Made by a program: the position numbers and the translations under genes. Of a stretch of 64,000 nucleotides of DNA, positions 2,949 to 19,818 are shown piece after piece (the stretch's first letter is position 1; each line of letters opens with the position of its first letter). This DNA is from Methanosarcina barkeri 3 (GTDB lineage Archaea; Halobacteriota; Methanosarcinia; Methanosarcinales; Methanosarcinaceae), in assembly GCF_000970305.1 (NCBI RefSeq), contig NZ_CP009517.1, forward strand, positions 186,001 to 250,000, given 5' to 3'. Under the pieces are notes generated by a model. That model had not been told where the DNA came from. It did not search any database and saw only the letters and a program-made list of their open reading frames with translations.

Positions 2949-5435
2949 TTAAAATTTTGTTGGAATTCTAACGGGATACTTTGCAGTTTTTTCACCATTG
3001 GATAGCTTGGATAGTATAATTACACGTGCATCTTCTGAAAGATTCTCAAAATTTATTTCAAAAGACTGTAAAATATATACAACATCCTGAGATTTTTCAA
3101 TATATTTATACAGAACATTCTTTAAATTATCGGAAGTATTGTCAAAATTTTTAATTATGCATCTTGCAACGTATTTTTCACAAGCTTTGTCATTTGAAAG
3201 TTTTATTAATATATATTCTACGATGTCAACCGGTATATTTTTAGATTTGTCTGCAATTGCTTTCGCGACATAGGGCCTAGAGTTTTCTTTTTCGATAATA
3301 TTAAAAAGTAAACATTTTAGATAGTCCGGAAGGTCGCTATAATTTTCAGTAATAGCACGAGCGATGTCTTCATCAAAACGGCCTTTTCCATAAAGTTCAA
3401 ATATTAAATTTTTTACATCTCCTGATACCTCATGATAGTTATCAATCACAGCTCGTGCAAGATGACCTGCAATCTTATCATCTTGGGCCATTTCAAACAG
3501 CCACTTCTGTATTTCTTTTGGGGCTACATAGAAATAATCAGTTATCGCTCTTGCAATATCCTTTTTGAGGTTCTCATCAAAATACAAATCCTGTAACAGG
3601 GCCTGTGCTTCGTTGGGAATATTTGAATAATTATACACAAGGGTACGAGCGACGAATTTTTTTGTATTCTCATTCTGTGCTAGTGTAAAAAGTAAGCTCT
3701 GTATCTCTTTTGGAAACTGGGTATAGTTGTCCGCTATGATTCTGGGGATATATCTTGAGGCATTTTTATCTTCAGCCAATTTCTGTAAAAACTTAAAAAA
3801 AATTTCTGGAAAAATGGCTGTAGACTGTTCTTTTGTTGCAAGCAGATATTTTAAAGCTTGAAGATATGAAGGATGGGAAAATTTTATTCTACAAGTTTGA
3901 TCATTTCTAATTTTGAATTCTTCAATTTTATCGCCTCTAAACCATTTAAATAGTGAAGCAAAACTCAAAGCATCTTTTATTCCAAATTCTTGAATCATTT
4001 CATTGTATTTTTCTTCAACGAATTTTACCCTAAAAGAACCGGATATAAAAGGAAATGATATAAATAAGATTTTATCCGCTGAGAAAGCATTAATTTCATC
4101 CGCAAAACTAATATCTGTCTCCTTTGATTTTTCAGTTATCTGTTCTTTCAATATTAGAGAATCTGTGATATCACAGCTTGCAAAACAAAAATTTCTAATA
4201 CTCAAAGGAGTTGGCAGATTATTAGGTAACTTTAAAAGTTCTAAGATAGAAGTTTTAAGCTTTGCATTAGATAACCACTTACATTTATTTTTTTTAGCCC
4301 AGTTCAGGAGAATTTCTTCTCTTTCACTATATTCTTGGAGGTTATTTTTTGCATTGAGCTTATATTCAAATCTTTTAATGTCAATTAAGTAGTTATATGA
4401 ATTAAATTCTTGAAAAACTTCACTTCTAGAAGTTATTATAAGAAATACGTTTTCAAATTCACGAGCTTTGTCGATTATTGTTTTTATCTTTTTTTCCAGA
4501 AATCCCATTCTTTCATAATTTTTTTCTCCAAACGGGTCTTCAAAATAAAAAATTACTTTTTCCTTTAGGTCAGATTCTATTTTTTCAAACCTTTTTTTCT
4601 TTTTATCTAATGGATTTTCTCCGATTTCCCATATAGGTTGATACTTTTTTAAGTAATACTCCCACAAAAGCCTGACAGCAGTAAATGTTTTTCCACATTC
4701 TGGATTCCCGGTAATAATGATAACTTTATTTTTTTCCAGACTTTTCTTAATTTCATCATATTCTTTCGGAATAACATAAAGTTTATCTATTCCTCCATAT
4801 ATAGGGTCATTTGGAATTCCTAGCGTGTTTAAAAAGTTCAAACTTTTGGCTCGTCTTTTGAAACTCTCGACATCGGCATAATAAAGAATTTTGTTTTTAT
4901 TTCTTTTTGGACTAATTATTTCTTGATCACAGTAGTCCATTTTTTGATATAATTTGTCCGTAAATAAAATAAAAGTGGTTCTAACCGATTGGTCATCATG
5001 AGTACTTTTATACCATTTACAGTATTCGCCAATAATATTATTTTTTAAAAAACAAATAGTAGAGTCTTCATCAACAAAGGAATCACTGTTAAACAAATCC
5101 CTATTTTCTGTATAAATTGCACTACCTAAGGCTATTTCAAAAGGAAAATCTTGTTGTATCTCTGTTATTTCATAAATAGATATGACTAATTTTTGGAGTT
5201 CTTCCGAAACTATTACCCAATCATCTCTTCCAGTACTGACTCCAATTATATAATTTCTCTCTTCAAGCTCTTTTAATTTATTTTTCAAATGGTGTCTTAA
5301 TTTATTTCTTATGTGACTGGGTTTTATATAATAAGGTTTTACATTTAAATCATAAGTTCCCACAATTTCTTTAGCTCTATTTTCAAATCCCAATATGTCA
5401 ATGTAACAAAGATAATACTCTTTTGCATCCACCAT
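2949..5435 (-). CDS. Palm/cyclase-like - STAND NTPase - helical-repeat protein, candidate CRISPR-linked effector
   Basis: The product has 828 residues. Residues 9-110 resemble a nucleotidyl cyclase/GGDEF-type palm: YIDILGF (Asp13) supplies the first metal position, and GRDDWVIV (69-76) sits where GGDEF/GGDD or the second cyclase Asp falls. Residues 215-350 form a P-loop NTPase like the nSTAND3 group: Walker A GNPECGKT (243-250), Walker B VIFYFED (294-300), sensor-like IITSRSE (333-339). A winged-helix-like part ends in FSHPSYLQ. Residues 560-765 hold seven copies of a two-helix repeat marked by (I/V)AR-A(I/V)--NY at 562, 594, 626, 658, 690, 722 and 755, a 32-residue period. STAND proteins are sensors that oligomerise on ligand binding, and several are anti-phage. 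The gene lies 68 nt downstream of the last cas gene on the same strand, with an AGAGG site and a nearby TATA box. Domain calls are by motif only. Confidence 0.7.
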   Translation of the reverse strand: MVDAKEYYLCYIDILGFENRAKEIVGTYDLNVKPYYIKPSHIRNKLRHHLKNKLKELEERNYIIGVSTGRDDWVIVSEELQKLVISIYEITEIQQDFPFEIALGSAIYTENRDLFNSDSFVDEDSTICFLKNNIIGEYCKWYKSTHDDQSVRTTFILFTDKLYQKMDYCDQEIISPKRNKNKILYYADVESFKRRAKSLNFLNTLGIPNDPIYGGIDKLYVIPKEYDEIKKSLEKNKVIIITGNPECGKTFTAVRLLWEYYLKKYQPIWEIGENPLDKKKKRFEKIESDLKEKVIFYFEDPFGEKNYERMGFLEKKIKTIIDKAREFENVFLIITSRSEVFQEFNSYNYLIDIKRFEYKLNAKNNLQEYSEREEILLNWAKKNKCKWLSNAKLKTSILELLKLPNNLPTPLSIRNFCFASCDITDSLILKEQITEKSKETDISFADEINAFSADKILFISFPFISGSFRVKFVEEKYNEMIQEFGIKDALSFASLFKWFRGDKIEEFKIRNDQTCRIKFSHPSYLQALKYLLATKEQSTAIFPEIFFKFLQKLAEDKNASRYIPRIIADNYTQFPKEIQSLLFTLAQNENTKKFVARTLVYNYSNIPNEAQALLQDLYFDENLKKDIARAITDYFYVAPKEIQKWLFEMAQDDKIAGHLARAVIDNYHEVSGDVKNLIFELYGKGRFDEDIARAITENYSDLPDYLKCLLFNIIEKENSRPYVAKAIADKSKNIPVDIVEYILIKLSNDKACEKYVARCIIKNFDNTSDNLKNVLYKYIEKSQDVVYILQSFEINFENLSEDARVIILSKLSNGEKTAKYPVRIPTKF

Positions 5436-5503: not shown

Positions 5504-6511
5504 TTAATCTAAATTCGAAAATTTAAGCAGACCACAGGAATCAAGTTCAATTTTATTTATTTTATCTCCAAAACAAGTACCAGGAACAAACGCAACCCCA
5601 TTGGAATCCAAACGCCTTCCAAACCCCTTTTTACTATCGTATATTCTTCCCACAAGTGGTTCAAGCTCACCCCTATATGTTCCAATTTCATCGGTGTTTA
5701 GTAACAGGTGGCCGAATATAGGATTTCCTTCAAAATTCTTCCCCGAGACAGCGCTTTCTTCATTTGTACAACCGTTATTGAAAATCAAGCGATCGGTGTT
5801 TTCAAGGTCCCAGTTAAAAACAGAGGCTCCTTTTTCAATCTTCTTCACTTTATTTTTGCACAGCTCCAATGTTCCAAATCCATATCTAAGGTCACCACCT
5901 ACACGGATTTCACTTAAAGCTTCAAGTAACTTTATTGATTTACCTTCATACCCAAGTTCTATCTCTTCAAATTCTTCACTGTTTTTTACAGAACATTTTC
6001 CAGAAATGTCTTCTTTCACAAAAAGATATCCTTTCCAGTAAACCTGCTTAACCCCAGTTTTGCAATTTACCTTGTTCAAAATATATTCGGTCTCATGCAA
6101 ACTTTCATCCATTGCTGAGTTTCTGCTCCCTAGTGTGGCTGTGGAAACAAAAGAACTAATGAAAGTGGATTCAAATTCTCTTTCGGAACACTGGCCGTAT
6201 TTTAAGCCTTCTTTCGTAAAGCTAGGATTGAATGTATCTTTACTGTTCCTCTTTTTTTGACCTATAATCTCTGGAAAAAAATACGTGTTTTTTACATAAC
6301 CTTCAATACATTTCCCAACTTTTTCGTAAACTTTGGGGTTATATTTTACGCCTTCATCTATTAGTTTTCTTGCAACATTTGAGGTTATAGCTCCCCACAG
6401 TGTTTTCCCTGGAATGTATCTTCGAGTTTGCTGAATAAAGCCAATTTTTCGGCTGCCGATGAAGATTGGGGATCTGGCTTTAAAACGTAATTCAAAGCAT
6501 GTATAGCCCAT
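5504..6511 (-). CDS. RAMP protein of Cas5 group (Csx10/Cmr3-like)
   Basis: The product has 335 residues. The N-terminal RAMP strand-turn is seen in ARSPIFIGSRKIGF, then the motif RYIPGKTLWGAI (the PG-S/T-L-G type loop common to RAMPs). A Gly-rich stretch RVGGDLRYGFGTLEL and a C-terminal GRRLDSNG/FVPGTCF region follow. This profile fits the Csx10 or Cmr3 branch that occupies the Cas5 position and holds the 5' crRNA tag. The ATG at 6511 is preferred over an upstream GTG at 6520. It follows the small-subunit gene with a 5-nt gap, so the two are translationally linked. Cmr3 versus Csx10 is not resolved. Confidence 0.75.
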   Translation of the reverse strand: MGYTCFELRFKARSPIFIGSRKIGFIQQTRRYIPGKTLWGAITSNVARKLIDEGVKYNPKVYEKVGKCIEGYVKNTYFFPEIIGQKKRNSKDTFNPSFTKEGLKYGQCSEREFESTFISSFVSTATLGSRNSAMDESLHETEYILNKVNCKTGVKQVYWKGYLFVKEDISGKCSVKNSEEFEEIELGYEGKSIKLLEALSEIRVGGDLRYGFGTLELCKNKVKKIEKGASVFNWDLENTDRLIFNNGCTNEESAVSGKNFEGNPIFGHLLLNTDEIGTYRGELEPLVGRIYDSKKGFGRRLDSNGVAFVPGTCFGDKINKIELDSCGLLKFSNLD

Positions 6512-6516
6512 AGTTA

Positions 6517-6960
6517 TCACTCTTGCTTTTCCTCATCAGTATCTTCTTTTTTTGAATCCTCTCTTTTTAATGCATTCTGAGCTTTTGCACGATAACGTGC
6601 ATAAATAAAGATTTGTTCAAGAACTTGCTTTGCGAAAAGCAACTTTCTTAAATCGGTTGAAAGGTTGATGATTTTATCTTCTTCACTTTCCCCAACGTCT
6701 GATTTGAGTTCTATGTTACATTTTTCCAGAATCTCCACTACATTAATTTTTCCATTTCCATCCCCGTTTTTATTTGAGGCTTTTAAATATAACCATAGAG
6801 CGTACACACCATTTGATGAAAGCACTCCTATTGATTTATTTATGAAAGATTCTATTTCCTTAGGTGTCATCCCTTCCTTTGAACCTTCAGGCTTCATTAA
6901 TTTGTCAACAATATCAAAACCGCTTTTTGCAGCGATAAAGTCAATATTATTTTGAGTCAT
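6517..6960 (-). CDS. Type III small subunit (Cmr5/Cas11-like)
   Basis: The product has 147 residues and is predicted all-helical, with the core segment SIGVLSSNGVYALWLYLKA and a second long helix RKLLFAKQVLEQIFIYARYR, then a charged tail (KREDSKKEDTDEEKQE). Size, helicity and position between cmr4 and the Cas5-like gene match the Cas11 subunit that packs along the crRNA backbone. A longer frame exists upstream to 7137, but it lies inside cmr4; the ATG at 6960 gives a short 14-nt overlap with cmr4, normal for this operon. Sequence similarity in this family is weak, so the call rests mainly on context. Confidence 0.65.
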   Translation of the reverse strand: MTQNNIDFIAAKSGFDIVDKLMKPEGSKEGMTPKEIESFINKSIGVLSSNGVYALWLYLKASNKNGDGNGKINVVEILEKCNIELKSDVGESEEDKIINLSTDLRKLLFAKQVLEQIFIYARYRAKAQNALKREDSKKEDTDEEKQE

Positions 6961-7921
6961 TTTCTCCCACTTCCTCAATCGTGACTCTTCCGAAACCTCT
7001 TGTGACCATCCCACCGATACCAAGAGTCTCAAAGTAGCAGAACCCACCTTTAACAATTGATTTAACATCAAGAAGCGAGATCCGGGTGTTACTTTTCCCT
7101 TCTTCTGAGCTGTTCTCACTCTTTTTGCCATATCCAAAATAATCAGGATCGTTTATACCCAGTTCAAACCAGAGTATAGTGCTCCTTGGGATGGCTTCAC
7201 TGGTAAAAAGGGCACCATCCTTTCCTGCACCAGTTACCGGATCAATAGATACTGAAGTTCTGACCTCAAGGTTGGAATTAATAATCTGTGAAATTAATGA
7301 ATCAGGCACGATTACAATTCTACTGGAGAGCAATTTATTTTTCTTTGGCCCAAGGGATGCAAGGTGATCAAAGGATGGCAGTTCTTTTCCATTTTCAATT
7401 GGAAGATTGAGCCACCCAAGATTCAGGCTTGATTCCTTTGAGAACTCAGAGCCAACCACTATACAATCATCAGAAGGTTCGTTTTCCTCTAATTGAATGT
7501 CAAAATCTTCTAAAAGCATGGGAGATGTTATCCACGCAGGCCCTAGCCTGGTGCTAACAGGGAACAAAAGAATGTGAGCGTCACTGAAGTAAACAAGCCC
7601 TTGCGAGCTCCCTATTTTTTCATCATTTTTGGAAAAACCGAAAGATTTGCAGATTATGCAATCCCCACAGTGCCCTCTCTCTTTTTTATCGGACACTGCT
7701 TTATCCTGTCCAGCACAATCTATGTTTTTTTTATCTATTTTTCCTTCATTGATTGCTTTATATGTAGCATAAGTCCTTGAAGTCCCTGCAATGCTACTTC
7801 CGGGGATCTTCGGGATATTGGTTGAAGGCTCTCTCACTATAGTATTGTCCACACGTCCTATCTGGTAGCCCCCGGTGCCGATGTGTATCGGATCAAGCGC
7901 AAACATAAGGTATTTACTCAT
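6947..7921 (-). CDS. cmr4: Cmr4, Cas7-family backbone and target-RNA nuclease
   Basis: The product has 324 residues. The N-terminus DPIHIGTGGYQIGRVDNTIVR followed by PKIPGSSIAGTSRTYA is the Cmr4 signature. Asp25 (in GRVDNT) corresponds to the catalytic Asp that cuts target RNA at 6-nt steps in characterised Cmr4 proteins, so RNase activity is probably retained. A CGDCIICKSFG zinc-knuckle-like insert (two CxxC) and the C-terminal GIGGMVTRGFGRV glycine loop are also seen. The start at 7921 has a GGTGAT site and overlaps the csx11 stop by a few bases; an ATG four codons upstream is possible. Confidence 0.88.
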   Translation of the reverse strand: MSKYLMFALDPIHIGTGGYQIGRVDNTIVREPSTNIPKIPGSSIAGTSRTYATYKAINEGKIDKKNIDCAGQDKAVSDKKERGHCGDCIICKSFGFSKNDEKIGSSQGLVYFSDAHILLFPVSTRLGPAWITSPMLLEDFDIQLEENEPSDDCIVVGSEFSKESSLNLGWLNLPIENGKELPSFDHLASLGPKKNKLLSSRIVIVPDSLISQIINSNLEVRTSVSIDPVTGAGKDGALFTSEAIPRSTILWFELGINDPDYFGYGKKSENSSEEGKSNTRISLLDVKSIVKGGFCYFETLGIGGMVTRGFGRVTIEEVGENDSK

Positions 7922-10900
7922 TTTTATCACCATTTGGCTTCATTTTTAGTATAGAGTTGTAAAATTCCAGAATATCAAAAATCGTTTTGTCGAGACAAAC
8001 CTTCTTAAGTAGCTCTTTCCCTTCTTCATCTAAAGAACTCCACCACTTACGAGTTCCAACATTTATCAAAATATTTTCAATGTGTTTTTCGAGAGTTTCA
8101 TAGTATTCAGTTTTATTTTTTTCTTTACAGTCTTTCCAATCCATATGAAGCTTCACAAGATTTTCTTGTATGTTTTTGAGTTGTGATGTAGTCATTGTTG
8201 GTTTATCGAACAACTCCCATACTTGTTCGAATATGGAGATAAACTCTTCAAGAAGGTAAGGTCTTGGTCCCATGAGTGAACTTTTTTGAATTCTTTTACG
8301 GTTCTTATATCTGATTTCTAATCTTCGGGCAGTAGTATCTAAAAATTCAAAATCAAAGTAATTCGGATACAACTTTACATTGTCATCTGGGCTTAAATCG
8401 GATCCACTTATCAAAAATTCGTTTTTACCGTCTATGAATGTTTCAAAGAAACCCTTTCTTTTTTGTGCTTCATCTTCAGAAGCATTAATTAGAAAGTTAA
8501 AATAATACCTTGCCTGAGCATTTGAACTCGTTCCCAATTGTACTTTTTTCTTCCTTGTTTCTGGTTTAGAAACTTCCAAGTCAATTGTAGAAGAGTTCTT
8601 TGAGATTACAGAGAAATCCAAAAAATCAGCGTTTTCAAAACCTGTGAGTATCCTTCGAGATGCATTTACAGAGGCATAAAGAGCTGTTTTGTAATCAAAA
8701 AATACAACTCCCAAATTCAGAGGTAACCTGCCAGCGACATTTCCCATTTCTTTATCATATTTATCTGTGATTTTCTTAAAAACTGCAGGAACACTATTTG
8801 CAGGCACAATAAACTGAAAGGTTATTGGAGACAGCAGAATTTCTAAAAAAGGTCTATATGACTTTTCACTGAATTTTATTTCCTTTACTTTATAGTTTTT
8901 ATATTCAGAGTTTTTTTCATCTTCTGACTTTATATCTATTTGTTTATACTTGGCGATGTCTTCTTTGTGTAAGAGAAAATGTTGGAGATTCTGGACAGAT
9001 ACAAATTTGGTGCCATCATAGTATGAAAGAAGACCAACTTTTTCGAATTTTAGATGATATACCGCTTTAGCTTTTGGAAATGGTTCATCCAATATAACTT
9101 CCAAACGCTTGAATCTATTTTCAATATTCTTTTTGGATTCAAGCTCTAAGTAAATACCCTGATCTTCTTTCAATTCATTTTGAATTTCGATCCAGAAATC
9201 TTTGGTAGATGTCCAAATTCTTCGTAGACGAGAAGGAGATGGATGTTTTCTGAAAACAGTTAATAGTAGACGTTCTGCCGCTTTTTCACTACTGGAACTA
9301 TCCCAACTACTTATTTTAGTGTTCCAAAGTGGATTTCTATCCACCACAAGATCTTCATAAAACTGTCGAGGACTTTGACCATAGTATGATTCTCCAGCAA
9401 TTTTTTCCAAAATTTCTGATTTTTCGTTATCATTTTCTAATTCTTGTTTCAAACTGTCACATAAAGAGTTCCAATTTTTGTATTCATGTGCATATGATTC
9501 CAGAGTCTGAGAAAACACGGTGTTAAGGAGCTCTCCTTCAAGCCACTTGCTTATGTTAAATCTTCCTGTTATAATTGCTACTTTTCCATTTGAATCTGCA
9601 ATTTCATCAATCCAAATTGTCGGATACTTCTTATTGGAGAAATCAGGCAACCAATCATTTATTCGATTTTCTCTTCTATTCAAACAACACTTACAAACTT
9701 CTTGATATTCACATTTTGGATGGATCTTACATACAGGACAAATATCAACCTGATGTTCTTTATTACCTCCCCCAGCCACACACTCACTATACCTTGTACA
9801 GGTATTCTTACAAAAGCTACGTTTTAGATTTTTTCTATTATTAATTGCACACTTGTTTATGTTTTTGCAAATGTTACAGGAACTTTTATAAACAAGAGCA
9901 TCTTGAACGTTGATAGTTAAAGCTTGATCCCATTTGTCTTTCCATATAGGAATTCCTTCGTACAGCTGAAAGTTACCTTTTGCTTCGGTTAAAAGCTTTG
10001 TGAGTAGTACAAGAGAGCGAGAAGGTTCACTTATGTTTATATATGGGATTACTTCTCCATCAGATTTTTTATTTACTCTACACAGTATATCTTCTTTTAT
10101 CAATTTCTCAAGAGAATCTTTGCCTATATCAGGACCAATAAAATAGATGCCACTTTCATCTTTGTATATTTCATTTCCAATAGGCAACTCTTCTTCGATA
10201 TATATTTTTATTTCTTTATCAATATCTTCAGTTAGTTTTCGGTATGCTACAATATCAACTAATTTATGTGCTTTTTCTATTAGACCAAGCTTATCATATT
10301 GTACTCCTATAATAACCCACTTTAAATCTTTTGGATTGATCCATTCCTCTTTATGTATCATATTTACTATGGCTGATTTGTAAAGACTTGCAACCGAATA
10401 TGAATGATCCCATAAAGTAACATCATTTCCGCTTCTTCTAGTATCTCCAAGCGACTTTAAAAATTCTCTTTTAATCAAGGGGAGAATCTTTCTTCTAATT
10501 AGAGCAATTTTATTTGGATTCTCACATATCTGTTCCAGCAAGTTAGCAAGTTCATTGCATAGTTCATCTCTAATTATTTTAAGATTTAATAATTCAATTT
10601 CATTTTTTTCACTCTCATAACCAAAAGATGTGGACTTAAAAACTCTATCTTTTGGTTGCTTGCCATTATTCTGTAGAAGTCCCTTATCTACACCAGAATC
10701 TAAACCATCTATGTTTGACAATAATTTTATTAATCCAATTCCACTATTTTTGTTATGGTGTTTTGAAATTAGCTGGCTTGGATCCGTTAATTTCTGAGTA
10801 AATATATATTTTCCTTTTTTAAAATCTCTATTGTTTAGATCTCTATTGAATATACTCAATATCTCTTTTTTTGAAATAATGATTTTTAATCGAGGAGGTA

Positions 10901-11030
10901 AAAAATCAGTATAATCGAAGTTTTTGGTACAGCCTTTGAGAATATCTTCATGTTCAAAATTGCAGTTTGGAGAATCTTTACTCTGTTTTGTGATAAATTC
11001 TTGACTAAGTTTTCCAAGATCATGTAACAT
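7914..11030 (-). CDS. csx11: Csx11, large subunit (Cas10 homologue) lacking GGDD
   Basis: The product is 1038 residues from the first ATG. HDLGK at residues 3-7 is the HD-domain metal motif, with a second His in TLWDHSYSVASLYK (205-218), as in Cas10. A dense zinc region holds about fourteen Cys between 385 and 449. Palm-like strands include TIWIDEIADSNGKVAIITGR (471-490). Where Cas10 has GGDD before a hydrophobic strand and 'P-A', this protein has LLSPITFQFIVPA (SPIT at 734-737). Csx11 marks subtype III-C systems, in which the polymerase is thought inactive. HD-type ssDNA cleavage may remain; cyclic oligoadenylate synthesis should not. The ATG sits only two residues before the HD motif. The frame stays open for about 30 codons upstream without ATG, GTG or TTG, so the true start may be non-standard. 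Confidence 0.85.
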   Translation of the reverse strand: MLHDLGKLSQEFITKQSKDSPNCNFEHEDILKGCTKNFDYTDFLPPRLKIIISKKEILSIFNRDLNNRDFKKGKYIFTQKLTDPSQLISKHHNKNSGIGLIKLLSNIDGLDSGVDKGLLQNNGKQPKDRVFKSTSFGYESEKNEIELLNLKIIRDELCNELANLLEQICENPNKIALIRRKILPLIKREFLKSLGDTRRSGNDVTLWDHSYSVASLYKSAIVNMIHKEEWINPKDLKWVIIGVQYDKLGLIEKAHKLVDIVAYRKLTEDIDKEIKIYIEEELPIGNEIYKDESGIYFIGPDIGKDSLEKLIKEDILCRVNKKSDGEVIPYINISEPSRSLVLLTKLLTEAKGNFQLYEGIPIWKDKWDQALTINVQDALVYKSSCNICKNINKCAINNRKNLKRSFCKNTCTRYSECVAGGGNKEHQVDICPVCKIHPKCEYQEVCKCCLNRRENRINDWLPDFSNKKYPTIWIDEIADSNGKVAIITGRFNISKWLEGELLNTVFSQTLESYAHEYKNWNSLCDSLKQELENDNEKSEILEKIAGESYYGQSPRQFYEDLVVDRNPLWNTKISSWDSSSSEKAAERLLLTVFRKHPSPSRLRRIWTSTKDFWIEIQNELKEDQGIYLELESKKNIENRFKRLEVILDEPFPKAKAVYHLKFEKVGLLSYYDGTKFVSVQNLQHFLLHKEDIAKYKQIDIKSEDEKNSEYKNYKVKEIKFSEKSYRPFLEILLSPITFQFIVPANSVPAVFKKITDKYDKEMGNVAGRLPLNLGVVFFDYKTALYASVNASRRILTGFENADFLDFSVISKNSSTIDLEVSKPETRKKKVQLGTSSNAQARYYFNFLINASEDEAQKRKGFFETFIDGKNEFLISGSDLSPDDNVKLYPNYFDFEFLDTTARRLEIRYKNRKRIQKSSLMGPRPYLLEEFISIFEQVWELFDKPTMTTSQLKNIQENLVKLHMDWKDCKEKNKTEYYETLEKHIENILINVGTRKWWSSLDEEGKELLKKVCLDKTIFDILEFYNSILKMKPNGDKNE

Positions 11031-11086: not shown

Positions 11087-11965
11087 TCAGCTTAATCCCC
11101 CCTCGATCATTTTTTGCATATCATCAAATGCAGATAACTTATATGGACTGATATTTACAATGCAGTCAATTTCATCTTCTACAACACCATATCCACTACT
11201 TGTCTTAGCACCAAAACCGTATGTTGTCATCATTTTCTTGATTGCATTAGATATTTGATTATAATCTTCTTTAATTTCCTCCAAATTTGGATTCTCAACT
11301 CCGATTAAATCAAAAGGAATATAAAATAAACTAAAGAACCCCGAGCCGCCTTTTGGCACAACCTCATACAAAATTGGATTTTTCACAGTCTTTGAATTTC
11401 TATCATGAGGTGCAATTATTTCAAGTCCAATCTGGTCAAAATAAGTTGGATAAAATATTAGCCTACCTTTTTTCTGGTTCTTACCTGTTTCAGTAGTATA
11501 ACCAAAAAGTCTTTTTATTATGTTGCTGTCTTCAGGGTTTTTATCAATCTGATTAATTTTTATAATTGTATTTCTTAAATTCCCTTTCCAACTACTAGCA
11601 CGTATCATTGGGATTTTGAATACATGTTCTTTTGTAATGGAATTCTCAATTATATAGAAATCATCATCGTCATTAGAATAAAATGGTTTTTTAAGCTTAA
11701 ATTTAAACTGAATAAGTAAAGAATATCTAGGTAAGTTTTTTACTTCTATATCGGGTTTATAAAGTCCAAGTATATCTAATGATTTTAATTCGTTTGAAAT
11801 AAAATAATCATATGATCTGTAAAGCTCATTTTGGTACTTATCCTTTGCATTCTGATATGCTTCCTTTTTAACTTCTTTATATTGCATTGATTTTGATAGT
11901 AGTTTTACATTCCAAAATGAGTTTCTTTCTCCTTCAACATAAAAATCGAAAAAATTAGTTTCCAT
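11087..11965 (-). CDS. Cas7-like RAMP protein (Cmr6/Cmr4-like)
   Basis: The product is about 292 residues. The RAMP core is recognisable from IPMIRASSWKGNLRNTI (the conserved P-x-S/G-S-x-K-G-x-(L/I)-R motif), then RLFGYTTETGKNQKKGRL and the C-terminal TTYGFGAKTSSGYGVV glycine loop. An unusual N-terminal 70 residues of helical, charged sequence precedes the core. In a complex of this kind a Cmr6-like subunit caps the Cas7 backbone near the 3' end of the crRNA. The ATG at 11965 has a GGTGAT site and overlaps the cmr1 stop. The last codons abut the csx11 frame. The exact RAMP subgroup is uncertain. Confidence 0.75.
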   Translation of the reverse strand: METNFFDFYVEGERNSFWNVKLLSKSMQYKEVKKEAYQNAKDKYQNELYRSYDYFISNELKSLDILGLYKPDIEVKNLPRYSLLIQFKFKLKKPFYSNDDDDFYIIENSITKEHVFKIPMIRASSWKGNLRNTIIKINQIDKNPEDSNIIKRLFGYTTETGKNQKKGRLIFYPTYFDQIGLEIIAPHDRNSKTVKNPILYEVVPKGGSGFFSLFYIPFDLIGVENPNLEEIKEDYNQISNAIKKMMTTYGFGAKTSSGYGVVEDEIDCIVNISPYKLSAFDDMQKMIEGGLS

Positions 11966-13202
11966 AAACATTATCACCCAGAAAGTTAAAATTATTTAAA
12001 ACGGATAAATCTTTAATATCTATGTTTTCCTCGGATAAATCTCCCTCAATCTTAACTGAAAAATTATTTTTAAGCACGGACTGAATCTTTTTAATAACTT
12101 CTTTTTTATTAAATCTAATGGAGATCTCATCATATGTAATAACTGGAGGGAGATTGCAAAGAACTCTGAAATTATAAGCATCATTAACCCTGTAGAGATG
12201 ACTTATCTCAACTAAGCTTGCCCATTTATTTTTTAAATCTGAACCAAATAAAGCTCTAGTTACAATTTTTGAAGTATTTTTATATTTTTTTCTAGTGTGA
12301 TATTTTTCACGATTATAGCGCCGAGATTGTTGATGGTTCAAATCAGAGGCATTTAATACCAAAGAATTTATTTCAAATTTCTTAAGAGATTTAAACTCTT
12401 TTCGTAAAAAATATCTAAGTATAAATCCAGTGAGAAGCAAGTTTTTATCGTAATGTTCTAAACCAACAAATTCTTCGAGAACATCTGTTGGTTCAATCTC
12501 TACATCGAAATAATAGAGATCTTGTATGTTTCTTAAATGGCTCAATTTTTTACTTATTCGTAATTTGTCCTGATTAGTTTCGTTGAATTTGTATACTTGA
12601 TTTTTCAAATTTTTCAAATCAAAACGTGGATCAAGTTCATCAAATTTAACTAATCCAAAACCATTCTGAGATTTCGATCCAATAGATCCTACTTTTTCCA
12701 TAAAGTTCAATAAAAAAAGAAGCTTATTTTTGATCTCTTCATTTTCTTCTGTAATTAAGTAAAACTTGAAGTATTCATTAGAGTAAAAAGCCATTGAGTT
12801 AGAATAAGTTTTTTTTATCCAGAACTCTGCATCAAAAACTTTTATTTTTTCTTCAAAAACTAGCTTTACGGGCGGTTTGCCCTCAACCTCTATCCTAAAC
12901 CTTCTTTTCCATCCAGTACACCCAAATAACCTGCAGACAGGGCACACATTTTTTAGCCCGATTTCGAGTGATTCATCAACGCTCTTTCCATTTTTCCTTG
13001 CTCTCTCATAACCCACTGTATTAAACTCACATCCACCATTTGAAGGATCACAAGCATATCCCCCCATCCCTCTAATTATTGCTTCATACCACCACCTCAT
13101 ACTTCCAATAATGCTTGTCTCTTTGATAGTCGTGCATTTTCTATCTGCGTCTCCAGTCCAGATGGGAGTCAAAGTCTTAAATTTGATTTCGGTTTTAATC
13201 AT
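11955..13202 (-). CDS. cmr1: Cmr1, Cas7-like RAMP protein
   Basis: The product has 415 residues. The N-terminus KTLTPIWTGDADRK followed by ETSIIGSMRWWYEAIIRG matches the Cmr1 signature (T-L-T-P-x-x-T-G, then S-x-x-G-x-x-R-W-W). A Cys cluster (CDPSNGGCEF and CPVCRLFGC) near 50-95 could bind zinc, and the RLFG motif is typical of RAMPs. Cmr1 caps the crRNA 3' end of the Cmr complex and contacts target RNA. A ribosome site AGGGG precedes the ATG. It is the second gene of the operon, 19 bp after cas6. Confidence 0.87.
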   Translation of the reverse strand: MIKTEIKFKTLTPIWTGDADRKCTTIKETSIIGSMRWWYEAIIRGMGGYACDPSNGGCEFNTVGYERARKNGKSVDESLEIGLKNVCPVCRLFGCTGWKRRFRIEVEGKPPVKLVFEEKIKVFDAEFWIKKTYSNSMAFYSNEYFKFYLITEENEEIKNKLLFLLNFMEKVGSIGSKSQNGFGLVKFDELDPRFDLKNLKNQVYKFNETNQDKLRISKKLSHLRNIQDLYYFDVEIEPTDVLEEFVGLEHYDKNLLLTGFILRYFLRKEFKSLKKFEINSLVLNASDLNHQQSRRYNREKYHTRKKYKNTSKIVTRALFGSDLKNKWASLVEISHLYRVNDAYNFRVLCNLPPVITYDEISIRFNKKEVIKKIQSVLKNNFSVKIEGDLSEENIDIKDLSVLNNFNFLGDNVYGN

Positions 13203-13221: not shown

Positions 13222-13965
13222 TTAATTATGAGATGATATTTTGGTATTCAGAAAGTCACTGAATTCATGATCGGAGGATTTTTGAGTATTGTAGCTTGTA
13301 ATTTTCCTCACAGTCCCAAACCCCTTAGCAACCCCCTTTCCCACTCCCATAAAATCCGGAATCAAAAAATTAGCTATAAAACCGCCTGTAAAAGAAGTAA
13401 AATCCATTTGTTTGTACTTTGAACCTCTGAGCTCCACATCAACATCGCATTTTATAGTATCAGGAACCGTATACCCAAAAGCTTTTGACATTGAGAGTAA
13501 ATTTCCTACAAGCGTCTTCCTGAGGATTTCCTTTTTTTCTTCAGGGTTTATAGTCTCAAAGAATTTCTCTTCATTTTCTTTATTAAGGGCAAGCCAGGGA
13601 GTGAGAAACTCGTAAAAGTAGAGGTTTTTTGTAAGGCCAAAGTCCTGTTTTTTAAGCCTCAGAGACATTTCAGTGATTTCAAAGTCCTCGTGAGGAAGAG
13701 TAACCGTATCAAATTTATCGAATAAACCTTTTAAAGTTTCTGCTCCTTCATTTATGCCAACCACTAGCGGCATTCTATCAAGAACTTTGTACTGCACCAG
13801 AGGATAACGATAACAAAACTTGTCAGTATTGTGGTTGTGGAGTTGATCGTATTCATTGAATTTTGACGCAAAGAAACCACGTATCTGATTTGCGTCCCCT
13901 TTGAACTCTTCTGAGCCTTCAAAAGTCATTTCAAGAGTTTTGAGTTTAATATTTTCCGTAGTCAT
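13222..13965 (-). CDS. cas6: Cas6 (Cas6b-like) crRNA-processing endonuclease
   Basis: The product has 247 residues. The N-terminal part has LRG-like RGFFASKFNEYDQLHNHN and YRYPLVQYKVLDRMPLVVGI, the pattern of the Cas6b N-terminal domain, with candidate catalytic or RNA-contacting His residues in LHNHN. The C-terminal domain holds the Gly-rich loop GVGKGVAKGFG. Cas6 cuts the repeat RNA to leave the 8-nt 5' tag, which would be AUUGAAAC here. It is the first gene of the minus-strand cas operon, which points in the same direction as array transcription. Minus-strand TATA-like sequence lies about 60 nt upstream. Confidence 0.85.
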   Translation of the reverse strand: MTTENIKLKTLEMTFEGSEEFKGDANQIRGFFASKFNEYDQLHNHNTDKFCYRYPLVQYKVLDRMPLVVGINEGAETLKGLFDKFDTVTLPHEDFEITEMSLRLKKQDFGLTKNLYFYEFLTPWLALNKENEEKFFETINPEEKKEILRKTLVGNLLSMSKAFGYTVPDTIKCDVDVELRGSKYKQMDFTSFTGGFIANFLIPDFMGVGKGVAKGFGTVRKITSYNTQKSSDHEFSDFLNTKISSHN

Positions 13966-14326: not shown

Positions 14327-17300
14327 GTTTCAATCCTTGTTTTAGTGGATCTTGCTCACGAATAATTACATCCTTTTCGTGTACTCCCATATATGTAATG
14401 TTTCAATCCTTGTTTTAGTGGATCCTGCTCACGAATTCTAGATTAAGTCCTGAACAATTTGCAAATGAGAAGTTTCAATCCTTGTTTTAGTGGATCTTGC
14501 TCACGAATATGATGGAGGACTTTGTAACATCTCTGTTCCCAGATATGTTTCAATCCTTGTTTTAGTGGATCTTGCTCACGAATAATTATGTCGTATTTTA
14601 CATTTAGGAGGATTGAAGTTTCAATCCTTGTTTTAGTGGATCTTGCTCACGAATATATGATATAATAGATTTGGTTGGAAAAATGGAAATGTAGTTTCAA
14701 TCCTTGTTTTAGTGGATCTTGCTCACGAATAGACATACGCGCAGCCAAGCAATGTTACTCAATGGAGTTTCAATCCTTGTTTTAGTGGATCTTGCTCACG
14801 AATACTGTCCCCTGCCCCGTTTCATATGATCCAGTCGGGTTTCAATCCTTGTTTTAGTGGATCTTGCTCACGAATCAATGGTGGTCTATTGTGAGTGGTC
14901 TTACTTACATGTTTCAATCCTTGTTTTAGTGGATCTTGCTCACGAATAGTGTAATATGAAGAATATTGAAGAAGCCGTCTTTTCAATCAGGTGTTTCAAT
15001 CCTTGTTTTAGTGGATCTTGCTCACGAATTGAGCAGCGCAGAAGCACGTAAACTAGACATTTTGTGTTTCAATCCTTGTTTTAGTGAATCTTGCTAACGA
15101 ATATTGTGGTGGGAATCGGAAGAAGAATATGAGGAACGGTTTCAATCCTTGTTTTAGTGGATCTTGCTAACGAATTGTGGAGAAGCATAGAGTTAGGAAA
15201 GTATCACCTAAGTTTCAATCCTTGTTTTAGTGGATCTTGCTAACGAATCTTTTGGGCAACTGAAGGAAACCTGAACCTGACACAGTTTCAATCCTTGTTT
15301 TAGTGGATCTTGCTAACGAATGATCTGCCTGGGTGGGTGGAATGCTGAGGTATATGAGTTTCAATCCTTGTTTTAGTGGATCTTGCTCACGAATAAGGCA
15401 GGACCGGAAAGATTAGAAGCCGCATTAAAACGTTTCAATCCTTGTTTTAGTGGATCTTGCTCACGAATATCACCACTAGATGCAGCAGCAGCAACACAGG
15501 CACTGTTTCAATCCTTGTTTTAGTGGATCTTGCTCACGAATTCAAAAAGAGCATCTGCATATGGAATTCCATCCGAGTTTCAATCCTTGTTTTAGTGGAT
15601 CTTGCTCACGAATTTTGTTGACGGCGTTGGGGTTTTTGGGCAATTGGGGTTTCAATCCTTGTTTTAGTGGATCTTGCTCACGAATACTACTATGGAACTC
15701 AAAGAACTCAATGAAAAATAGTTTCAATCCTTGTTTTAGTGGATCTTGCTCACGAATTTTTTATAGTACGTTTGTTTAAACCATCGTTTGTTTCAATCCT
15801 TGTTTTAGTGGATCTTGCTCACGAATATCGTGGATCAGGGGGAAACAGCGCAGGAGAGAAATGTTTCAATCCTTGTTTTAGTGGATCTTGCTCACGAATT
15901 CGAACAGGAAGCAGTACAAAAGCCTCTGGAGGTCTGTTTCAATCCTTGTTTTAGTGGATCTTGCTCACGAATAGGGACAATCTGCAACAGGCCAAAGCTC
16001 AAAGTTGAGTTTCAATCCTTGTTTTAGTGGATCTTGCTCACGAATTCCCATGTTTTTGAATTGTGCTTATAGAAGGAATGAAGTTTCAATCCTTGTTTTA
16101 GTGGATCTTGCTCACGAATTTTCAGTTTGGGGAGCATGGATAATAATATCCTGGGTTTCAATCCTTGTTTTAGTGGATCTTGCTCACGAATTCGAAGTCA
16201 ATGAAGTCATATCGCTCTCATCAACTCCAGTTTCAATCCTTGTTTTAGTGGATCTTGCTCACGAATAAAAGGAGAAGGCTGGAAGCGTACCGATGGATCA
16301 ATGTTTCAATCCTTGTTTTAGTGGATCTTGCTCACGAATAATAATCCAATTTGTTAACGTCAACCGTGGGATGTTTCAATCCTTGTTTTAGTGGATCTTG
16401 CTCACGAATGGTTGCGGTACACGCGAGCCTATATGGAGTGTGAAGTTTCAATCCTTGTTTTAGTGGATCTTGCTCACGAATTGTGATTTTTTGAGCAGTG
16501 GAGCCGAAACGTAATTGTTTCAATCCTTGTTTTAGTGGATCTTGCTCACGAATTTGTAATGGTCGAGTGCTACCATCTGAGTTCCAGTGTTTCAATCCTT
16601 GTTTTAGTGGATCTTGCTCACGAATAAGTCAGGATGGTAGATTTTGACGAGTTGTTTAAGTTTCAATCCTTGTTTTAGTGGATCTTGCTCACGAATTAAG
16701 TTTGCTCAGGAAGTTCAGGGGGTGGTCTGATGTGTTTCAATCCTTGTTTTAGTGGATCTTGCTCACGAATTAGAAAAATTAACTCCGGTATGGAACACGC
16801 TTAAAATGTTTCAATCCTTGTTTTAGTGGATCTTGCTCACGAATTCCCAAGGTGTTTTCCTTCTTCTCTAGCTCTTTGGTTTCAATCCTTGTTTTAGTGG
16901 ATCTTGCTCACGAATTGGTTTCCAGGTACTCTATGAAAAACAAGTTGAAGGTTTCAATCCTTGTTTTAGTGGATCTTGCTCACGAATATATAAAGTTTGT
17001 CCGTAGTATGTGGATAAAAAAAGTTTCAATCCTTGTTTTAGTGGATCTTGCTCACGAATTTTGAGTCTATGTCTTTTCAAGCTTTACAGATAGTGTTTCA
17101 ATCCTTGTTTTAGTGGATCTTGCTCACGAATGAGAAAAGACTTCCAAAAAAGGAGAGGATTCTGAGTTTCAATCCTTGTTTTAGTGGATCTTGCTCACGA
17201 ATGAGTGCATCATCGGATAGCGGAAACGGACTTACAAGTTTCAATCCTTGTTTTAGTGGATCTTGCTCACGAATAGTTAAGTAACGGTGGTTTGATTCCA

Positions 17301-19460
17301 CCTAATCTTTTTGTTTCAATCCTTGTTTTAGTGGATCTTGCTCACGAATCGTATGTTTCTGTTTCAGAACTGTAATTTTCGTCAAGTTTCAATCCTTGTT
17401 TTAGTGGATCTTGCTCACGAATTATGTGTGGAAGAGTGTGGATACATGGAACTATACCAGTTTCAATCCTTGTTTTAGTGGATCTTGCTCACGAATTGGT
17501 TTTCCATAGCAATCTTTCACTATTTTTTCAACGTTTCAATCCTTGTTTTAGTGGATCTTGCTCACGAATAAGTTTAGTAATTCGCATTCCAGCTTTAATT
17601 TTAAGTTTCAATCCTTGTTTTAGTGGATCTTGCTCACGAATCTACATGTATATAGATCCTAAAAAACACTGTAATAATGTTTCAATCCTTGTTTTAGTGG
17701 ATCTTGCTCACGAATAAGAAGCTTACCCCGATGAACCAAGCGATGAAGACAGTTTCAATCCTTGTTTTAGTGGATCTTGCTCACGAATAATTTAAAATCC
17801 ACTTCCAAGTGATCGACGGTTCCGTAGGTTTCAATCCTTGTTTTAGTGGATCTTGCTCACGAATCAAGCTCTGGAACCTTCTGAGCTTGTTCAATCGCAG
17901 TTTCAATCCTTGTTTTAGTGGATCTTGCTCACGAATTATTAAAAACCAGAGATAAAAGAACATCTATAGTGTTTCAATCCTTGTTTTAGTGGATCTTGCT
18001 CACGAATTGCAAAGGATCGAATGATAGATTATTCTTGTTCAGTTTCAATCCTTGTTTTAGTGGATCTTGCTCACGAATCTAGCCGGTTTTCAGGAAACTC
18101 TAAAAAACCATACTGTTTCAATCCTTGTTTTAGTGGATCTTGCTCACGAATAAAAAAATGAATGAATCATACAAACAAACAGGAATTAGTTTCAATCCTT
18201 GTTTTAGTGGATCTTGCTCACGAATGGTTGGATTAACCTCCACAAGCTTCCTAAAGCAACTAGTTTCAATCCTTGTTTTAGTGGATCTTGCTCACGAATA
18301 TCATTCGAGGAGATCAAACAAGAACTAGGTGAAAGGTTTCAATCCTTGTTTTAGTGGATCTTGCTCACGAATTAATTCCGCAAAAGTTATTACTTGATAT
18401 CAGGAAATGTTTCAATCCTTGTTTTAGTGGATCTTGCTCACGAATGAGAGTATGTCAAGGGTATAAGCTGTCCTGAAGAAAAGTTTCAATCCTTGTTTTA
18501 GTGGATCTTGCTCACGAATAGAGAATGTAGAAGAAACCATAGAGGAAGTCCAGCCGTTTCAATCCTTGTTTTAGTGGATCTTGCTCACGAATAAATATTG
18601 CGCCCATGTTAGCTCCATTTTCATTGGTTTCAATCCTTGTTTTAGTGGATCTTGCTCACGAATATATTTTGGTTTGTGTTTCATACTCCTCCTTTTTCTT
18701 GTTTCAATCCTTGTTTTAGTGGATCTTGCTCACGAATAACTCCCTGGTTCTTTCCAACGACTATACATTCCACAAGTTTCAATCCTTGTTTTAGTGGATC
18801 TTGCTCACGAATAAGGCTTCTTTCGAACTGCAGGTAATGATAACGTTGGTTTCAATCCTTGTTTTAGTGGATCTTGCTCACGAATATGTAATTGCTGTGA
18901 CCTTGTTGTGAATATCATTGTTTCAATCCTTGTTTTAGTGGATCTTGCTCACGAATAAATACGAAATGCGGTAATTCACGCAATATATTCAAGTTTCAAT
19001 CCTTGTTTTAGTGGATCTTGCTCACGAATTTCAAAAAGAGCATCCGAGTATGGAATACCAGGTGAGTTTCAATCCTTGTTTTAGTGGATCTTGCTCACGA
19101 ATAACCTACTACACTCTAATATTATTTATTATTTTTGTTTCAATCCTTGTTTTAGTGGATCTTGCTCACGAATATATATTATACTAAGTCCTTTTCGTTC
19201 CCCTATCATGTTTCAATCCTTGTTTTAGTGGATCTTGCTCACGAATATTTACAGGTCAATCACTTATTAATATATTAAATGTTTCAATCCTTGTTTTAGT
19301 GGATCTTGCTCACGAATACGACACGAAGCTTTCATACACGTTTCCTTAAATGGTTTCAATCCTTGTTTTAGTGGATCTTGCTCACGAATACGTCAGCAGG
19401 TGCAAACTTTGGATGCATGATAAGTTTCAATCCTTGTTTTAGTGGATCTTGCTCACGAAT
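14327..19460 (-). CRISPR. CRISPR array, 71 repeats of 37 bp, 70 spacers
   Basis: On the plus strand each repeat begins GTTTCAATCC and ends GCTCACGAAT. Spacers are mostly 33-39 nt; one (14948-14992) is 45 nt. Read on the minus strand the repeat ends in ATTGAAAC, the usual 8-nt 5' handle of type III and Cas6-processed crRNAs, so transcription runs from 19460 down to 14327, towards the cas operon. That makes the right end leader-proximal and youngest. Variants are few: one T-to-C change in repeat 2 (14400-14436), and a block of four consecutive repeats (15065-15321) with CTAACG instead of CTCACG, the first of which also has GTGAATC. Frames open across repeats are not genes. Confidence 0.98.
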
Positions 19461-19640
19461 AGGGCAAAAATTTCCGTTATTTGGCCAGAAAAGGTCTGAA
19501 ATGAGCCCTTTTTTGGAGCTAAAATTCTTGCTGGAAAATTATCAAACCCTTTATAAATACAAGAAAAATCTCTTCATATGCAGATACTCCAGTAAGGCTA
19601 TCTACATATTTCATAGAAGATCTGTATGTTTTGGGATATA
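19461..19640 (-). promoter_or_regulatory. CRISPR leader with TATA box
   Basis: Directly outside the last repeat is AT-rich non-coding DNA. On the minus strand TTTATAAA at 19557-19550 follows a purine/T-rich element, which places initiation near 19525, about 65 nt before the first repeat transcribed. This agrees with the orientation inferred from the repeat 3' end. The rest up to 19818 has no gene. Confidence 0.6.
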
Positions 19641-19818
19641 AGTCTTTTTAAACAACATCGAGCATTTTCTGTATTATGTTATCGGCTTCTTTGCAGTCTG
19701 AGGAAATAATTGAGACAATTCCTAAAAACGCGCTTGAAGTCCACAAATTATAACTAAGGCACCGAGAAACAAAATAGACGGTAAAAATTTAGGTAAAATC
19801 ATAAGGATATCGCGACAA

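Follow-up and report, generated by a model that had tools for sequence, protein, structure and literature searches.

In type I systems of clustered regularly interspaced short palindromic repeats (CRISPR), old spacers that match only partly prompt the acquisition of new ones, a process called primed adaptation. Type I protospacer adjacent motifs (PAMs) also occur in type III arrays without adaptation genes; in the sections of PMC8482600 drawn on here, shared repeats together with shared machinery form the most frequent of three categories, and the PAM given there for the I-B systems of Methanosarcina is TTA. Here we describe array A, a CRISPR array beside a type III-C locus of Methanosarcina barkeri 3, within a window of 64,000 nucleotides (the whole stretch of DNA analysed, positions 186,001 to 250,000 of contig NZ_CP009517.1), whose positions are used below unless another sequence is named. 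Two of its spacers, 17 and 65, are diverged versions of one sequence, and probably represent two acquisitions, separated in time, of the same PAM-anchored site in two diverged members of one mobile-element lineage.

This locus is like the third category of PMC8482600, as that survey's cited text describes it, in combining a type III locus without adjacent cas1 or cas2, near-identical repeats, and a type I TTA PAM in the type III array. It is unlike that work in scope, a survey of many genomes there versus one genome with one dominant mapped virus here, and in the single base that separates the two repeats here. As in PMC12143468, spacers are matched to the IMG/VR database for Methanosarcinaceae hosts; the cited part of that paper does not mention diverged pairs or dozens of diverged spacers per virus, and the virus contig described below may be in its list. 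The TTA PAM and the sharing between I-B and III are already published (PMC8482600); what is new here is the link to a virus and the pairs, and we make no claim that diverged pairs are absent from print.

Two diverged spacers of very different age

14327..19460, minus strand: CRISPR array A, 71 repeats (37 nt) and 70 spacers; RNA repeat end ...GGATTGAAAC; orientation from PAM and leader
19461..19710, minus strand: probable leader side, from a 250-base alignment with the sequence flanking the second array of the genome
15542..15576, minus strand: spacer 17 (35 nt), the older of the two, at place 54 counted from the leader
19030..19065, minus strand: spacer 65 (36 nt), younger member, 6th from the leader, with the CRISPR RNA (crRNA) 5' edge of spacer 17

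The flank from 19461 onwards aligns with that of the second array, which places the leader there and sets the two spacers in order. The initial annotation had called them very different in age, and their positions relative to the leader bear this out. A minus-strand reading of the crRNA, which it had entertained, is shown by the leader as well as by the TTA of the mapped protospacers (see below), which lies on the fitting side.

Read as crRNA, that is as reverse complement, and aligned from base 1, spacers 17 and 65 agree at 28 of 35 bases, as first noted, and the stretches TCAAAAAGAGCATC and TATGGAAT are present in the letters of both. They are separated by 48 array positions and have an exactly identical crRNA 5' (PAM-side) edge, with mismatches at crRNA positions 3, 4, 5, 9, 18, 19 and 21. 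Three of these seven differences, at positions 3-5, fall inside the seed region of the crRNA.

The 70 spacers of array A and the 99 spacers of normal length in the second array, array B, were compared all against all (169 spacers, 14196 pairs). Spacers 17 and 65 reach a local-alignment score of 22, versus a maximum of 16 in 40 simulated spacer sets, and when anchored at the crRNA 5' end they are 80% identical, versus a best value of 65% over 100 simulated sets. Their similarity exceeds chance, and two separate acquisitions of diverged homologous sequence, as the initial annotation had proposed, are supported for this pair. The same comparison yielded two diverged pairs in array B, b61/b72 (score 22) and b55/b76 (score 21), here called sister pairs. 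All three pairs have the same orientation; b61 and b72 have their crRNA 5' edge exactly in common and six of their seven differences in one codon position (P about 0.02), and b55 and b76 overlap over 27 bases with different crRNA 5' edges. One spacer pair becomes in this way a measurable pattern, three diverged pairs of which two have identical PAM-side edges. Spacers 4 and 24 (65%), a possible fourth pair, were not retained, since the simulations reach an equal value.

A virus contig matched by spacers of both arrays

The pattern of b55/b76 retrieved a single contig from IMG/VR, IMGVR_UViG_3300005263_000012 (101,744 bp); a further scan of the same database for the sister pairs gave 0 matches. 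This virus contig is matched without gaps at 75-100% identity by 42 of the 169 spacers (15 of 70 in array A, 27 of 99 in array B), three of them exactly, and by none of 845 shuffled controls at 75% or more. Each sister pair falls on a single site of it: b76 (37/37) and b55 (33/36) in one open reading frame (ORF) of 167 aa, and b61 (31/37) and b72 (28/35) in the ORF of a FilR1-type regulator (FilR1 middle domain), with the same TTA alongside and next-best matches of 62-63%. The repeated encounters with one element lineage that had been proposed from spacers 17 and 65 are borne out genome-wide by one virus contig on which both of these pairs fall, together with 42 of the 169 spacers in all. The array A spacers concerned are:

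14364..14399, minus strand: spacer 1 (31/36)
14876..14910, minus strand: spacer 8 (34/35), virus contig position 71477
15614..15720, minus strand: spacers 18 and 19, adjoining spacer 17 (both 29/35)
16192..16302, minus strand: spacers 26 (32/38) and 27 (27/36)
16554..16659, minus strand: spacers 31 (27/35) and 32 (30/34)
16771..16807, minus strand: spacer 34 (37/37), virus contig position 91288, in the tape-measure gene
18152..18482, minus strand: spacers 53-57, five consecutive (34/37, 30/37, 32/36, 31/36 and 32/37)
19247..19280, minus strand: spacer 68 (27/34)

Matches are clustered in array A, with 7 adjacent pairs versus 3.0 expected (P 0.008). Two neighbours of spacer 17, spacers 18 and 19, are among them; the direct neighbours of spacer 65 are not.

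Genes for a terminase, a tape-measure protein, an MCM helicase and a Linocin/encapsulin-family capsid protein are present on the virus contig, and a portal match lies below the cut-off. No terminal repeat was found in it, so that it may be incomplete. The virus has genes with FilR1 and disaggregatase-related domains, both typical of Methanosarcina, and like the TTA motif, the I-B PAM listed for this genus, they point to a Methanosarcina as the probable host, to which the 42 spacers tie this metagenomic tailed virus of 101.7 kb. Immediately upstream of the b55/b76 target, a virus gene (L025:10666-12021) encodes a disaggregatase-related domain and a beta helix, and its product may open the sugar coat of the host; a full-text literature search for disaggregatase, Methanosarcina and virus found only work on the host cell surface.

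Five IMG/VR records with a related terminase are each matched by 0 of the 169 spacers at 75% or more. A contig of 60 kb in a genome of the same genus (G008:C111; L107-L109) carries a terminase with 56% identity to the viral one and is, on our reading, a putative related virus or provirus; over the 59.8 of its 60.4 kb that were compared it is matched by 0 of the 169 spacers, the best value being 26/36.

Motif, adaptation module and strand

TTA stands on the crRNA 5' side of 8 of the 15 protospacers of array A and 13 of the 27 of array B, versus a background of 2.5% in the contig. An array beside a III-C locus without adaptation genes is therefore found to obey a type I PAM rule. No adaptation proteins were found among the proteins tested beside array A, and the whole genome contains one Cas1 match (PF01867, G000:C1:3727699-3728562), in the I-B locus, with Cas2 and Cas4 adjoining. 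This type I-B locus (a cas8b piece, cas7, cas5, cas3, cas6b, cas1, cas2 and cas4) accompanies array B, which lies at 3.73 Mb of the host contig (array A at 0.20 Mb) and consists of 101 repeats, 98 of them one base off the array A repeat. The best reading of this arrangement is that array A is probably filled by the I-B module.

The initial annotation had also considered that the plus-strand frame could be the mRNA with which a type III complex pairs. With virus ORFs chosen by length, without annotation, the mapped spacers of array A divide into 9 antisense and 4 sense to predicted ORFs, with 2 more lying outside any (P = 0.27), and those of array B into 14 antisense, 11 sense and 2 outside (not significant). 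Together with the type I PAM, these counts do not support targeting of mRNA as a principle of selection. A mild coding-strand bias is described in the cited text of PMC8482600; the ratios here, 9:4 and 14:11, are not significant.

As for the coding strand of spacers 17 and 65 themselves, the plus-strand reading SKRAS(A/E)YGIP put forward earlier does form an open frame, but the minus strand offers one just as open, S(D/P)GIPY(A/S)DALF, with the same wobble positions. Four of the seven differences fall in one codon position, which has a probability of about 0.5 by chance and is alone no evidence of coding. Scored with the codon use of the virus, spacer 17 obtains 2.98 on the plus and 3.72 on the minus strand, and spacer 65 obtains 3.08 and 2.75, a tie that leaves the earlier choice of the plus strand unsupported. 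The method, trained on ORFs of the same contig, was right about the strand in 26 of the 31 mapped spacers that lie in ORFs of at least 300 bases.

Search for the source of spacers 17 and 65

One viral or plasmid gene had been assumed behind the pair. The homology of the two spacers stands, and we infer that the element was most likely a virus; the searches listed here brought up no source element to match.

Four patterns of 17/65 with wobble or variable positions left free gave 0 matches in IMG/VR, and a fifth gave 4 loci; these were rejected, as they match spacer 17 or 65 at no more than 18-23 of 35 bases and their best spacer of any at 68%. There was no match to the 17/65 pattern in 20 related IMG/VR virus records, and 67 other fetched loci compared with all 169 spacers reached 71% at best. 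Phages returned E values of 0.5 or worse. Among plasmids, a Runella plasmid appeared with 12 segments (E 8e-4), which we interpret as matches to repeats, and the others had E values of 1 or worse. A peptide search with both readings of the pair in the virus and the related loci fetched produced best scores of about half of self.

Genome collections gave the array itself and a few rejected candidates. One wobble pattern found three bacterial loci with unrelated frames in the genome_contigs collection. Allowing up to 3 mismatches in 99 genomes (its own included), we recovered the array and one site in each of three genomes, all of one genus in another family of the same order; these sites share one oxidoreductase-like ORF (named by eye) and were rejected as a short peptide coincidence. 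With 1 mismatch, 392 genomes of the phylum gave the array and, in G020, an unrelated gene present twice. A search of 30 genomes of the genus gave the array and seven scattered sites with 3 mismatches, one of them in its own genome (judged by eye). In 111 genomes of the family, only the array itself was found. The genome G008 has 16 sites at 2-3 mismatches to the 17/65 pattern, versus 6 for a reversed control.

Origin of the pair

The sister pairs demonstrate PAM-guided resampling of a drifting virus lineage, and the same process is likely for spacers 17 and 65. Under such a scheme, the I-B adaptation module elsewhere in the genome, which holds the only cas1 found, would pick up segments of roughly 36 nt beside 5'-TTA and add them to both arrays at their leader ends, array A next to the III-C genes among them. 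With drift of the virus, old spacers would cease to match and the same site would be sampled again; the mismatches at seed positions 3-5 could have let the younger allele escape spacer 17. A natural guess is that the source was a relative of the virus contig and that the target is a gene missing from the contig and present in such relatives. The likeness to primed adaptation consists in an old spacer with seed mismatches, several spacers per virus and a neighbouring run in array A, the last of these taken from adjacency in the arrays.

A different origin, from two paralogous sites or repeats in one element genome sampled in one or two infections, seems unlikely to us. As no protospacer of 17/65 is known, their similarity alone fits paralogues as well as alleles, but each sister pair has just one site on the virus contig (for b61/b72 with nothing else nearly as close), so that such pairs look allelic in this genome, and the distance of 48 positions between spacers 17 and 65 also speaks against paralogues. 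That one spacer is a mutated copy of the other, duplicated within the array, is far less credible: spacer duplication is known in this genome from the identical neighbours b24 and b25 of array B, but this one clear case is exact and adjacent, while spacers 17 and 65 are of unequal length and mismatched at 7 of 35 bases, yet 66 of the 71 repeats of array A are identical, including the four that flank them. Chance likeness, some of which is expected among 14196 pairs and which may account for spacers 4 and 24 within the simulated range, is next to inconceivable for a pair scoring 22 versus 16 and 80% versus 65% in the simulations, provided that the modelled composition is not grossly off.

Several results nevertheless weigh against repeated sampling of one virus lineage as the source of the pair and of the arrays at large. 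Searches of phage, plasmid, IMG/VR and genome collections turned up no protospacer of 17/65, and on the virus contig spacers 17 and 65 reach at best 63% and 61%, the level of chance. For their coding strand, the plus and minus readings tie. Exact TTA is absent at 21 of the 42 protospacers on the virus contig, as diverged alleles may show. The matches of array B are unclustered (8 adjacent pairs versus 7.0 expected, P 0.40), and identity to the contig does not rise with proximity to the leader (Spearman 0.02 and 0.19, not significant), so that a simple time course is not visible. The contig accounts for about a quarter of the spacers, the remaining three quarters being without a known source.

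The III-C locus and other features of the arrays

5504..6520, minus strand: cmr3
6517..7137, minus strand: cmr5, small subunit
6947..7933, minus strand: cmr4
7914..11030, minus strand: cas10, subtype III-C (Cas10c 1.2e-154)
11087..11977, minus strand: cmr6
11955..13202, minus strand: cmr1
13222..13965, minus strand: cas6b

The III-C effector set beside array A consists of Cas10c, Cmr1, Cmr3, Cmr4, Cmr5 and Cmr6. A GGDD-like motif was looked for in its Cas10 (7914-11030) and not found, which makes signalling by cyclic oligoadenylate doubtful. On the same strand, 68 nt downstream of cmr3, a gene at 2949-5435 (minus strand) encodes an nSTAND3 NTPase of 828 aa, part of which also matches the PADLOC model PDC-S73; its position would suit a final gene of the III-C operon.

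Four consecutive repeats in the older portion of array A (15066-15321) carry a C-to-A variant, three of them identical and one further changed, which suggests that the variant was copied in successive insertions. Near the leader-distal end of array B, a stretch of 845 nt between two repeats (L013:15070-15914), excluded from the spacer set, contains an ORF of 83 aa (15183-15434; DUF7557 above the cut-off and VAPB_antitox just below) and a Fic/Doc ORF of 128 aa (15436-15822), and is likely a toxin-antitoxin module inside a CRISPR array. Two altered repeat copies isolated from both arrays, at G000:C1:2970905 and 72 bases below (L014), represent either a remnant or a mini-array.

Same-site pairs and the pool of threats

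The virus contig has 5,116 TTA sites, and 169 random draws from one such genome would yield an expected 2.8 same-site pairs by TTA or 1.6 by TTR, versus two seen (17/65 and b61/b72). Same-site pairs are at random-draw expectation, and no special re-targeting is therefore needed. For the 42 mapped spacers taken by themselves, the expectation is 0.17 same-site pairs, and there is one (P = 0.15). Two same-site pairs in 14196 translate into an estimate of 7,098 sites (95% range 1,965-58,610), versus the 5,116 TTA sites of the contig, a rough figure that rests on two pairs and would miss pairs below about 65% identity. These numbers suggest that the pool of threats is small. We would also entertain, tentatively and at somewhat less than even confidence, that both arrays are a long and dense record of one group of 100-kb viruses, with 42 of 169 spacers, and perhaps many unmapped ones, taken from successive diverged members.

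Overall, the initial observation is confirmed, and its interpretation appears supported in outline by these comparisons of sequences, short of proof for spacers 17 and 65 themselves. If the two arrays are indeed such a record of one virus group, pairs of this kind would provide a capture-recapture measure of the threat pool of a wild archaeon, and spacers 17 and 65 would mark a gene absent from the contig. Given more virus genomes, one host genome with such pairs could be enough to date escape and re-immunisation.

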